Positions 1,864-17,951 of a stretch of 20,282 nucleotides of DNA are shown in pieces. A program made the translations under genes and the position numbers. The DNA lies in IMG/VR virus record IMGVR_UViG_3300042881_002960, positions 1-20,282 of that record; one strand, written 5' to 3'. The notes below the pieces were generated by a model. That model was not told the DNA's origin. It saw nothing but the letters and a program-made list of their open reading frames with translations, and ran no database searches. The stretch comes from a virus. How positions within the stretch are numbered: position 1 is the first letter of the stretch; the number at the start of each line of letters is the position of its first letter.

Positions 1864-4035
1864 ATGACGATCAGCAGCACAACCCGCATCGCCGGCCCGT
1901 TCTTGAGCGGAACCGCGCTTCCGTTCGCTTTCAAGGTATTTGCCGCGTCCGATCTTGACGTGGTGCGCCTCAATGTCTCGACAGGCGTGGAATCCACGCT
2001 TGTCCTCAACACCGACTACACGGTCGCCCTAAACGGGAACCAGAACTCGAATCCCGGCGGTACGGTGAACCTGACGGTCGCCGCGTCCGCTACCAGCACG
2101 GTCACGATCACCTCGGACATTGCCAACCTCCAGCCGACCGACCTGACGAACCAGGGCGGCTTCTACCCGGAGGTCATCAACGACTCGCTGGATCGGGCCA
2201 CGATCCAGATCCAGCAGATGTCTGAGGACGTGGGCCGCAGCCTGAAGGGGCCGATTTCGGACGGCAGCCTCAACATGGAGCTGCAAACGGCCGCACTCCG
2301 TGCGAACAAGTATCTGGTATTCGATGCAAACGGACTCCCGATTACGTCCACCGGGAGCGGAACGGACACCGCGCTTCGGACGGATCTTGCCGATACTGGC
2401 ATCATTACTGCCGGGGCTGGACTCGTCGGATTTCGCAACGCGGACGCTTCGTCGGTCGGAAGGACTGTGCTGTCCAAGCTCCGCGATGTCGTGAGCGTGA
2501 AGGACTTTGGCGCGGTCGGCGATGGCGTGGTGGATGACACGGCGGCGATTCAGGCTGCCTTGAATGCAAGTTCCTCTGCCGTATACGTTCCAATTGGCTC
2601 ATACAAACTGACCAGTAAACTTTCCATTCCTGCAAATTCACGTTTGTATGGAGATGGAAATTCATCTGAGTTGTTCATGGCGTCGCAACTAGACATCATG
2701 GTTGAGATTGTTGGCGACAATATTGAAATCAGCAATATGTCGTTTCGTGGAACGAACACTTTGATTCCAGCAGCCGGAATCAACGAGCGAACCGTTGTTG
2801 CAATTGGTCGGGCAAATATTGTTGTGTCAAATTGCAGATTTTGGCAAACAGTAATTGGATTGCAATTTGAAACATGCTCCAACGTCAAGGTCTGCGAGTC
2901 TTACTTTTCGACAATCAAAACCAGAAATGACGGGACGCAGGGTTACGGAATTTTGTGCAACACCGATACTGTGTACGGAATAATTGCGAACAACAGTTTT
3001 TCAGACATGGGCCGGCATGCGGCCTACCTTTCGAGTGGGTCATCGAAAATTACTGTGTCGAGCAATGTCATCGAAAATTGCGATAGCGTAGCAATCAATC
3101 TTGGGGCATTCCCAGGGGAGAATGAAGTTCAAGATATTGTGATTACCGGAAACATTATCCGGTCGGTCGCAGGAGCTGTATCACCACACGGCATTAGCGT
3201 CACGCAGAAATGCAAATACATTGACATCACTGGGAATTTGATACGAACGATTGGTTCGTATGGAATTTCGGTCAATGGAGCAAATGCCAACAGCCCATCA
3301 GACAATCCTGTTTCGATCAATATCCGCAACAACACCTGTATTGGGTGCGACCGGGGAATTTCAATTGTCAACGCACAAGATATTTTGTGTGACGGGAACG
3401 CTGTTGCATCATCAACTTCTATAGGAATTGAAGCAACAACGGATGGTGCTGGCACTGGTGCCGTAGCCACCAGGATGAGAATTACCAACAACTCCGTAAA
3501 TGCTTCTGCAACTTATGGTCTGTTGTTGGGCGGAACTGCGTCTTCTACTGATTATTTTGTGGAAGGCAACTACATCACCAATTCAACAGCAGCGGACTAC
3601 TGGACTCCAACTTTGAATGGAGCGGCATTGCCAGCAGCACAGATTGTGTATGGCGATCCGCGTATGCAATTTACGTTCACGGCAACTTCGGTCACTGCTT
3701 CGCAAACTGATATTGCAATGATTGGTGCCGCAGCAGGATTCACCGAATACGTAGTTCCATCTTCCATGTATGCCTTGGTGAATGTGGCAAGACATGCTTC
3801 CGCCATTACCGCTGGAACCATGACAGTAATTCTCACCAAGAACGGCAGCAATCAAACTGTTTACAACGTTGTTCTGAGTAGTGCGAATCAAGCAACTACA
3901 AATAATCAAGGTTTGTATTTGAAGTTTTCGGCTGGAGATCGAATTGGTATGCGGTATTCAACGAACGCGGCGTATGTTGCATCGGGAACTGCCGCCGTTC
4001 AGGCTCAGATTGAACTTGTCAAGGCCTCAACATAA
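1864..4035 (+). CDS. Tailspike / tail fibre with pectate-lyase-type beta-helix
   Basis: A 723-residue protein with ATG preceded by AGGAG at 1851-1855. Residues 1-125 resemble the virion-binding N-terminus of T7-like tail fibres (an FxVxxAxDLxV pattern, then NDSLDR and the IQIQQM heptad region). Residues about 211-235 carry the entry motif of the pectate lyase 3 fold (VKDFGAVGDG, then DDTAAIQAAL). Residues about 235-575 are Asn/Gly/Ile/Val-rich rungs typical of a right-handed parallel beta-helix, and residues 590-723 form a beta-rich C-terminal domain. Such proteins bind, and often cleave, surface polysaccharide as the first receptor. Catalytic residues cannot be assigned by eye. From about 2560 to 4035 the DNA is much more AT-rich than the first third and the flanking genes, which suggests that the receptor-binding part was exchanged from another source. 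Confidence 0.85.
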   Translation: MTISSTTRIAGPFLSGTALPFAFKVFAASDLDVVRLNVSTGVESTLVLNTDYTVALNGNQNSNPGGTVNLTVAASATSTVTITSDIANLQPTDLTNQGGFYPEVINDSLDRATIQIQQMSEDVGRSLKGPISDGSLNMELQTAALRANKYLVFDANGLPITSTGSGTDTALRTDLADTGIITAGAGLVGFRNADASSVGRTVLSKLRDVVSVKDFGAVGDGVVDDTAAIQAALNASSSAVYVPIGSYKLTSKLSIPANSRLYGDGNSSELFMASQLDIMVEIVGDNIEISNMSFRGTNTLIPAAGINERTVVAIGRANIVVSNCRFWQTVIGLQFETCSNVKVCESYFSTIKTRNDGTQGYGILCNTDTVYGIIANNSFSDMGRHAAYLSSGSSKITVSSNVIENCDSVAINLGAFPGENEVQDIVITGNIIRSVAGAVSPHGISVTQKCKYIDITGNLIRTIGSYGISVNGANANSPSDNPVSINIRNNTCIGCDRGISIVNAQDILCDGNAVASSTSIGIEATTDGAGTGAVATRMRITNNSVNASATYGLLLGGTASSTDYFVEGNYITNSTAADYWTPTLNGAALPAAQIVYGDPRMQFTFTATSVTASQTDIAMIGAAAGFTEYVVPSSMYALVNVARHASAITAGTMTVILTKNGSNQTVYNVVLSSANQATTNNQGLYLKFSAGDRIGMRYSTNAAYVASGTAAVQAQIELVKAST

Positions 4036-16493: not shown

Positions 16494-16567
16494 GAGCGGG
16501 TGCAACTGCTCAACATCCCAAAGGCCGGCGGTGGGGTAGGTGCGCTGCACCCGCTCCCTGCCCCACC
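16494..16567 (+). promoter_or_regulatory. Leader with mutually exclusive hairpins
   Basis: GAGCGGGTGCA (16494-16504) pairs perfectly with TGCACCCGCTC (16546-16556), a long-range 11-bp stem. The competing fold pairs GGTGGGG (16530-16536) with CCCCACC (16561-16567) and GGTGC (16539-16543) with GCACC (16547-16551). Bases 16547-16551 take part in both, and the second stem encloses the right arm of the first, so the two cannot form together. The leader lies between the promoter at 16481 and the ribosome site GAGGT at 16579. This is the layout of an attenuator or RNA switch, but regulation is inferred from pairing alone. Confidence 0.5.
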
Positions 16568-16588: not shown

Positions 16589-17137
16589 ATGGCAACGAAC
16601 TATCCGTGGTTCCCCTTCTACGCAGCCGATTGGACGCTGTCGGTGATCGGGATGAACGCAACCCAGCGCGGGATCTACATCTCGCTGCTGGCCTACCAAT
16701 GGGCGAACGGGCATGCACCCGCAATGCGCGAGCAATGCGCGCGCATAGCGGGCGCAGAGCAGATGCAGGACGCAGACTGGGACGCCGTGCGAGCGAAGTT
16801 TGCGCTCGTTGACAGCGACCGAATGGTGAACGCGCGGCTTGAGGAATGCCGTGGAATCTGTAAGTCCCGCTCCGACAACGCGAAACGCGCGGCGGCAGCG
16901 TCGTGGCAGAAGCGCGCGCAAAGCGCGAGCAATGCCGGAGCAGATGCTCCCGCAGATGCGGAGACAGATGCGACCGCAATGCGACCGCATATGCGCGAGC
17001 AAAGCGCGAGCAATGCTAGTCACAGTCATAGTCAGATACCAATCCCCCCTAAAGCCCCCCCTTCAAAGGGGGGGCAGCGCCTGCGGCGCAGGGATCTTGA
17101 CAAGGCAGCAGCCGATCCGAACTGGATTCCGTTCTGA
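16589..17137 (+). CDS. DUF1376-type replication protein
   Basis: A 182-residue protein, ATG at 16589 with GAGGT six bases upstream. Residues 1-90 match the DUF1376 pattern of phage replication proteins: NYPWFPFYAADWTLSVIG (3-20), then MNATQRGIYISLLAYQWANG, with later basic helices. Residues 100-150 are low-complexity Ala/Ser/Asp (SASNA and ADA repeats), and the end is Pro-rich, then basic, then DPNWIPF. DUF1376 genes usually stand first in replication modules, before helicase-loader-like genes; direct biochemical evidence for the family is thin. The low-complexity part coincides with a DNA repeat array, so the protein sequence there may be shaped by the DNA. Confidence 0.75.
   Translation: MATNYPWFPFYAADWTLSVIGMNATQRGIYISLLAYQWANGHAPAMREQCARIAGAEQMQDADWDAVRAKFALVDSDRMVNARLEECRGICKSRSDNAKRAAAASWQKRAQSASNAGADAPADAETDATAMRPHMREQSASNASHSHSQIPIPPKAPPSKGGQRLRRRDLDKAAADPNWIPF
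16721..17074. repeat. Iteron-like repeat array inside the DUF1376 gene, candidate origin
   Basis: The 18-mer GCAAAGCGCGAGCAATGC occurs exactly at 16918-16935 and 16999-17016, and with one change at 16721-16738. Between 16968 and 17012 four 11-base units run almost end to end: ATGCGACCGCA twice, ATGCGCGAGCA, AAGCGCGAGCA. They are followed by three tandem AGTCAN hexamers (17018-17035) and a strong hairpin of seven C's and seven G's around TTCAAA (17055-17074). The copies of the 18-mer are read in different codon phases, so the repetition is kept at DNA level. This is the layout of an iteron-type origin within a replication gene, as in phage lambda O. Confidence 0.6.
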
Positions 17138-17160: not shown

Positions 17161-17628
17161 ATGACCGACGAAATCACCTGGCCGACCAACAAGCGACTCA
17201 TGGCATCCCTGTGGCCGAAGTGGCGACCGACCGACGAGCAGGCCCGACTCCTGAACGACCGATGGGGACTGCTGCACCAGGACACCCTGCGAAAGTGCAT
17301 CGAGGACAACGCCATGCAGTCGCGCCGAGAGCCGTCCGTGTCGGCGATCAACCGCGCGTACTGCAAGCTCACCGCCCCGCTCGTCGGCGCGTCGACGTCG
17401 ACGCACGACACCGAGCGAACCCGGCGCGATGCCGCCTACGTGCAGCCGCTGACCGACGCCGAGGTCGCCGACTGGGAGGCGTGGGCAGAAGAAGTCCTCG
17501 CCACCGCGACGCCTGCGGAGATCGACGCCGTGCGCCAGCGCATGCCCGTGGGCGAGTCGCGCCGCGTCCTTGCGGTCGCCGTCGACTACTGCCGCAGAAA
17601 TCCCGAGAGATGGCCCACCCCTCGGTAA
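17161..17628 (+). CDS. Hypothetical protein of the replication module
   Basis: A 155-residue protein with an AAGGGA site about 7 bases upstream. Residues 5-70 contain WPTNKRLMASLWPKWRPTDEQ, a leucine-rich helix, then RKCIEDNAMQSRREPSVS and a short strand. This resembles the N-terminal regions of phage helicase-loader-like or replication-accessory proteins that scan residues before a P-x-L or IxxxY segment, but the match is loose. Residues 90-155 are helical and acidic, ending NPERWPTPR. Position right after the DUF1376 gene supports a replication role, which is inference. Confidence 0.55.
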   Translation: MTDEITWPTNKRLMASLWPKWRPTDEQARLLNDRWGLLHQDTLRKCIEDNAMQSRREPSVSAINRAYCKLTAPLVGASTSTHDTERTRRDAAYVQPLTDAEVADWEAWAEEVLATATPAEIDAVRQRMPVGESRRVLAVAVDYCRRNPERWPTPR

Positions 17629-17929: not shown

Positions 17930-17951
17930 TATGCTCCCGCATATGCATATC
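17928..17951. promoter_or_regulatory. Candidate operator over the regulator start
   Basis: GATATGC (17928-17934) and GCATATC (17945-17951) are exact inverted arms ten bases apart, and GCATATGC (17939-17946) is an 8-base palindrome between them. Both ATG codons of the XRE-like gene lie inside. Binding of its own product here would block transcription or translation. Confidence 0.45.

Follow-up and report, generated by a model that had tools for sequence, protein, structure and literature searches.

In the origins of lambdoid phages, iterons and an AT-rich tract lie in the middle of the O gene (PMC7466680). At ori2 of Vibrio cholerae, iterons adjoin an unwinding element (PMC11711613, PMC10797057), in which six ATCA repeats at regular intervals are kept single-stranded by RctB (PMC11711613). 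A further origin, oriJ, is carried by the Rac prophage of Escherichia coli (PMC3945230); neither its base-level position nor a mapping of oriJ to ydaU was found in the literature searched. Here we analyse a 20,282-base fragment of an incomplete viral contig (IMG/VR record IMGVR_UViG_3300042881_002960, positions 1–20,282; hereafter the window), in which the gene of a DUF1376 protein carries arrays of short direct repeats. These repeats are most likely a theta-type phage replication origin that is embedded in its own initiator gene and works in the manner of lambda O and ori-lambda. The features concerned are the following:

16589–17137, plus strand: DUF1376 (PF07120) gene, 182 amino acids, proposed replication initiator with its own origin
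16604–16846, plus strand: code for the DUF1376 domain, winged-helix-like in topology according to an AlphaFold model
16715–16769, plus strand: upper iteron array, 5 × 11 bp, inside the code for the folded domain
16912–17016, plus strand: lower iteron array, nine unbroken units of 11–12 bp in the linker code
17018–17035, plus strand: hexamers AGTCAC AGTCAT AGTCAG with TCA at 6-nt intervals, candidate DNA-unwinding element
17044–17074, plus strand: hairpin C6-TAAAG-C7-TTCAAA-G7, with a second C-run upstream

An initial, sequence-only reading of the window had pointed to an 18-mer, GCAAAGCGCGAGCAATGC, and to its codon phases. Both observations hold, with exact copies at 16918 and 16999 and a copy with one change at 16721, in phases 3, 3 and 1, respectively, as counted from the ATG at 16589. 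The same reading had noted four near-tandem 11-base units, which are present but were under-counted, as the gene contains nine units in the lower array and five in the upper. In order, the upper array consists of GCACCCGCAAT GCGCGAGCAAT GCGCGCGCATA GCGGGCGCAGA GCAGATGCAGG, and the lower array of GCGCGCGCAAA GCGCGAGCAAT GCCGGAGCAGAT GCTCCCGCAGAT GCGGAGACAGAT GCGACCGCAAT GCGACCGCATAT GCGCGAGCAAA GCGCGAGCAAT GC. When codons were swapped among identical amino acids, 30.1 ± 3.7 matches at lag 11 were expected in the lower array compared to 44 observed (p = 5e-4), and 24.1 ± 2.8 in the upper array compared to 33 of 46 observed (p = 1e-3). The longest repeat after codon shuffles of the gene measured at most 14 nt, as opposed to the 18 nt observed. 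Taken by itself, the exact 18-mer pair could reflect repetition of a peptide, because both copies share one codon phase and each encodes SASNA; a repeat of 18 nt also arose in 1 of 500 synonymous permutations. The decisive DNA-level signal is the 11-bp period, which crosses codon phases. As in lambda O, directly repeated iterons lie inside the gene, 3′ of the code for the N-terminal domain. The lower array is conserved among relatives, the upper array has counterparts in them, and iterons of the same class occur inside the domain code of other DUF1376 genes. Separately, ATGCTCCCGCATATGC at 17931–17946 matches 16944–16959 of the lower array in 15 of 16 bases; it falls at the beginning of a small gene some 800 bp further downstream and is possibly a stray iteron.

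Relatives of the window protein are encoded at twenty IMG/VR loci (31–100% identity), while a nucleotide search of phage genomes returned no match. In the relatives whose linker DNA was read (95–100%, 68–86%, 55% and 31% identity), the units are followed by hexamers and these by a C-run/C-run/G-run hairpin; the 31% relative has 12-bp repeat units and ACAACC-type hexamers. Comparison of the window with locus L008 shows that one 11-bp unit was gained and another lost with frame and length unchanged, and that the peptide across this turnover differs (RPHMREQSASNA in the window, RPQCDRICASNA in L008). Between these two loci, the DNA pattern is kept and the peptide is not. Such turnover would also be expected from neutral tandem duplication or low-complexity drift in a disordered linker, which accepts almost any sequence and in which repeats would carry no DNA function; arrays are indeed missing in some relatives. 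The family-wide data described in the following bear on this explanation.

Few relatives were obtained by a scan of genome contigs, and the broad sampling of DUF1376 came from searches of bacterial genomes. The sample, drawn from bacterial genomes, phages and E. coli K-12, was reduced to 62 genes with domains less than 60% identical, and the 240–300 nt located 3′ of the domain code (the linker) were scored for autocorrelation against codon shuffles. Applied to lambda O, the method recovers the known iterons (lags 20, 23, 24 and 44), which as annotated lie mid-O, and it yields lags 22 and 44 for Gifsy-2. The 62 DUF1376 linkers show strong autocorrelation at lags 11, 12, 22 and 23 as well as at 6, 7, 14 and 21. 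Lag 11 exceeds z = 3 in 23 of the 62, whereas most other lags remain near zero. The domain code gives a weaker lag-11 signal (9 of 62 genes), and the remaining parts of the genes show little periodicity. At one common threshold, arrays of 11-mers or of 6/7-mers, i.e. (C/T)CA motifs at 6- or 7-nt intervals, were detected in 29 of 62 linkers; among 1255 tiles taken from other open reading frames the rate was about 2%, and the codon-shuffle expectation was 0.04 per class. At looser thresholds, the two array types occur together in 19 genes, without exception with the 11-mers 5′ of the 6/7-mers. It should be noted that the thresholds and the two iteron cores discussed below were chosen post hoc, a freedom that is constrained, though not eliminated, by controls based on codon shuffles, synonymous permutation and label permutation. 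The layout of 11-bp iterons and 6/7-mers recurs, in fixed order and position, in most of the sampled, highly diverged DUF1376 genes.

Two 7-bp cores, GCAATGC and GTTCAAC, both near-palindromic (3+1+3), predominate in the 11-bp arrays. They are found in 26 (3.6 expected) and 12 (2.3 expected), respectively, of 81 genes, a set that includes near-copies, and successive copies of a core are mostly spaced 11 or 22 nt. More than one codon phase is used in 12 of 17 genes with GCAATGC and in 8 of 11 with GTTCAAC. Exact cores in the domain code match the linker class: seven GCAATGC and no GTTCAAC where the linker is of the GCAATGC class, none and seven where it is of the GTTCAAC class (permutation p = 0.0016). 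For the 6/7-mers, a spacing of 6 from CCA to CCA occurs 37 times (6.9 expected) and a spacing of 7 occurs 45 times (4.8 expected). The coding strand of these arrays is rich in A (41%) and C (33%), and the duplex is less stable than the gene mean (p = 5e-9), the median array ranking among the weakest 4% of gene windows. Slippage would yield neither two shared period classes nor a fixed order in 19 of 19 genes, nor identical 7-mers in very distant genes, nor domain-code arrays matching the linker type, nor a family-wide weak duplex at the 6/7-mers. We therefore regard neutral drift as very improbable.

In the window, the three AGTCAN hexamers noted earlier were located at 17018, 17024 and 17030. 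Across the gene, duplex stability is lowest in a 36-nt segment that starts at 17008–17017, on the hexamers, so that an easily melted segment adjoins the iterons as in lambda O. The C7/G7 hairpin was likewise correctly identified, with C7 at 17055–17061 and G7 at 17068–17074, each the sole such run on the plus strand of the window. It is kept in relatives with altered loops and is also present in YdaU and several other DUF1376 genes. As a shorter form exists in Gifsy-2 O, the hairpin is not specific to DUF1376. From L012 6001–6477 to L016 1371–1850, the stem is unchanged but the 3-nt loop looks inverted, with GAG at one locus and CTC at the other. The directly observed layout, its conservation across diverged DUF1376 genes, the DNA-level constraint and the weak duplex 3′ of the iterons lend strong support to the earlier proposal of a phage origin.

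The product of the gene is assigned to DUF1376 by its Pfam profile (E = 4e-9, residues 6–86; 37.1 bits compared to a gathering score of 30.1) and matches PHROG families named “primosomal protein” (PHROG 9327, E = 2e-15). DUF1376 was the only domain found in it, and the Phage_rep_O (PF04492) N-terminal domain was not. Pfam labels DUF1376 as of unknown function, and no assignment was seen in the titles and abstracts of the papers found to mention it. A sequence search against solved structures gave no convincing match. An AlphaFold model of the domain, based on an alignment built without phage-record proteins, reached a predicted local distance difference test score (pLDDT) of 94.3 and a predicted template modelling score (pTM) of 0.80. 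Its elements are helices 12–18, 24–40, 47–53 and 61–68, strands 72–75 and 78–80, and a helix at 82–117; in this high-confidence model the topology is winged-helix-like, judged by our reading of the order of the elements. In E. coli YdaU, the DUF1376 protein of the Rac prophage, residues 173–285 are similar to O-type replication proteins from Gifsy and further phages. DUF1376 thus seems to stand where O proteins have their own N-terminal domain.

These observations suggest that DUF1376 itself binds the array: the modelled fold is winged-helix-like, the iterons lie within its own gene, and the C-terminal part of YdaU is common to lambda-O-type proteins. Alternatively, the origin is real and the iterons are bound by a host factor or the product of a companion gene. 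GCAATGC and GTTCAAC do recur in distant genes and are loosely tied to the domain tree. Still, the iterons lie in and directly 3′ of the DUF1376 domain code, like the lambda iterons in O, and the modelled topology of the domain is winged-helix-like. To our knowledge, neither 7-mer resembles a DnaA box. On balance, a different binder is unlikely.

With DUF1376 as the binder, its winged-helix-like domain would contact the 11-bp iterons, of which each helical turn offers one; most of them lie in the linker code and some in the code of the domain itself. Assembly of this complex would open the neighbouring segment of weak pairing, where the initiator may hold the (C/T)CA motifs every 6–7 nt in single-stranded form, and the replicative helicase would be loaded there via a neighbouring loader or helicase gene. 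Protein binding, melting, helicase loading and the start of replication at this site are all inferred. The array might instead be a binding site of another kind, namely an operator for autoregulation or a centromere for partition. Centromeres of the ParR and TubR types typically consist of 11–12 bp direct-repeat arrays, partition sites are known to use one-turn iteron arrays that nucleate a protein helix, initiators often repress themselves, and iteron binding is often regulatory too. Either is improbable as the sole role, since the arrays sit within an initiator-like gene of replication modules, often near helicase or loader genes, a weakly paired 6/7-mer segment follows 3′ of them as expected of an unwinding element, and the C-terminus of YdaU is shared with O proteins. 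The two roles could coexist.

Compared to lambda O and Gifsy-2, the origin proposed here shares the position of the iterons in mid-gene, just 3′ of the N-terminal domain, and the weakly paired segment that follows. The N-terminal domain belongs to a different family (PF07120 as opposed to PF04492), and the geometry differs as well. An iteron spacing of 20–24 bp is seen in lambda, in Gifsy-2 and in most of the Phage_rep_O genes tested, and lambda-type iterons are themselves longer inverted repeats, whereas the window has one per 11 or 12 bp and DUF1376 iterons have a 7-bp core. Further differences here are the CA-motif repeats every 6/7 nt and the additional array in the domain code. The best reading is a lambda-O-like origin within its initiator gene that has a new geometry, with one-turn iterons and a (C/T)CA unwinding element. 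Iterons beside regular short motifs are reminiscent of V. cholerae ori2 and RctB, with ATCA there and (C/T)CA every 6–7 nt here. The parallel with this chromosomal origin is one of design, no sequence homology is claimed, and single-strand binding by DUF1376 is only proposed. The linker code of YdaU contains GTTCAAC-like repeats of approximately 11 bp, others of the ACAGAT type, and CCCCCCCTAAATCCCCCCCGGGGG, albeit its iteron array is degenerate (lag-11 z of 1.9, lag-23 z of 3.2). We consider it reasonably probable that DUF1376/YdaU proteins form a widespread, unrecognised class of phage initiators with a distinct origin type, in which one-turn iterons with near-palindromic 7-bp cores, even in folded-domain code, precede a strand-specific (C/T)CA repeat that acts as an unwinding element bound in single-stranded form, paralleling that of Vibrio ori2. 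On this reading, oriJ of the Rac prophage should be located within ydaU.

Several results weigh against the origin and initiator assignments. The type of iteron agrees only loosely with the domain tree (24 changes compared to 31.8 when shuffled; near-copies and forks of poor resolution confound this comparison), which leaves cognate binding by DUF1376 a proposal. The sequence-only reading had held that relatives keeping the protein and losing the repeats would speak against an origin; most genes retain an array, but about 14 of 62 show neither type even at the loosest threshold. It had also proposed cumulative GC skew as a check. In three complete phages, the skew minimum fell beside the DUF1376 gene in one, where transcription is also divergent, and elsewhere in the other two. 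Moreover, the O-like C-terminal part is absent from the window protein, and no helicase gene was recognised in the window, which is an incomplete contig.

If correct, the assignment provides a function and mechanism for DUF1376, a widespread uncharacterised family that includes E. coli YdaU, and a base-level location is proposed for oriJ of a laboratory strain. Phage and prophage origins would become readable by a simple rule, i.e. a DUF1376 domain, 11-bp iterons, then 6/7-nt CA repeats. DUF1376 genes further illustrate clearly how DNA signals can overwrite coding sequence, that of the folded domain included.

Genes for DnaB, DnaC, P-like or DnaA-like proteins are often found beside DUF1376 in phages. 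In the window, a different gene follows:

17161–17628, plus strand: companion gene, 155 amino acids, kept 3′ of DUF1376 in L012 and L018

It directly follows DUF1376 in three lineages (window 17161–17628, L012 6489–6950, L018 6476–6937) and has neither a Pfam nor a PHROG match; its product is a possible candidate for a helicase-loading partner. Just upstream of the DUF1376 gene, between divergent genes, a perfect 11-bp inverted repeat (GAGCGGGTGCA / TGCACCCGCTC) is located at 16494–16504 and 16546–16556, 41 bp apart, and may be an operator. Elsewhere, GC content drops to about 45–47% at 2250–4000 within the gene 1864–4035, compared to about 65% in the remainder of the contig, suggestive of a recently acquired segment.
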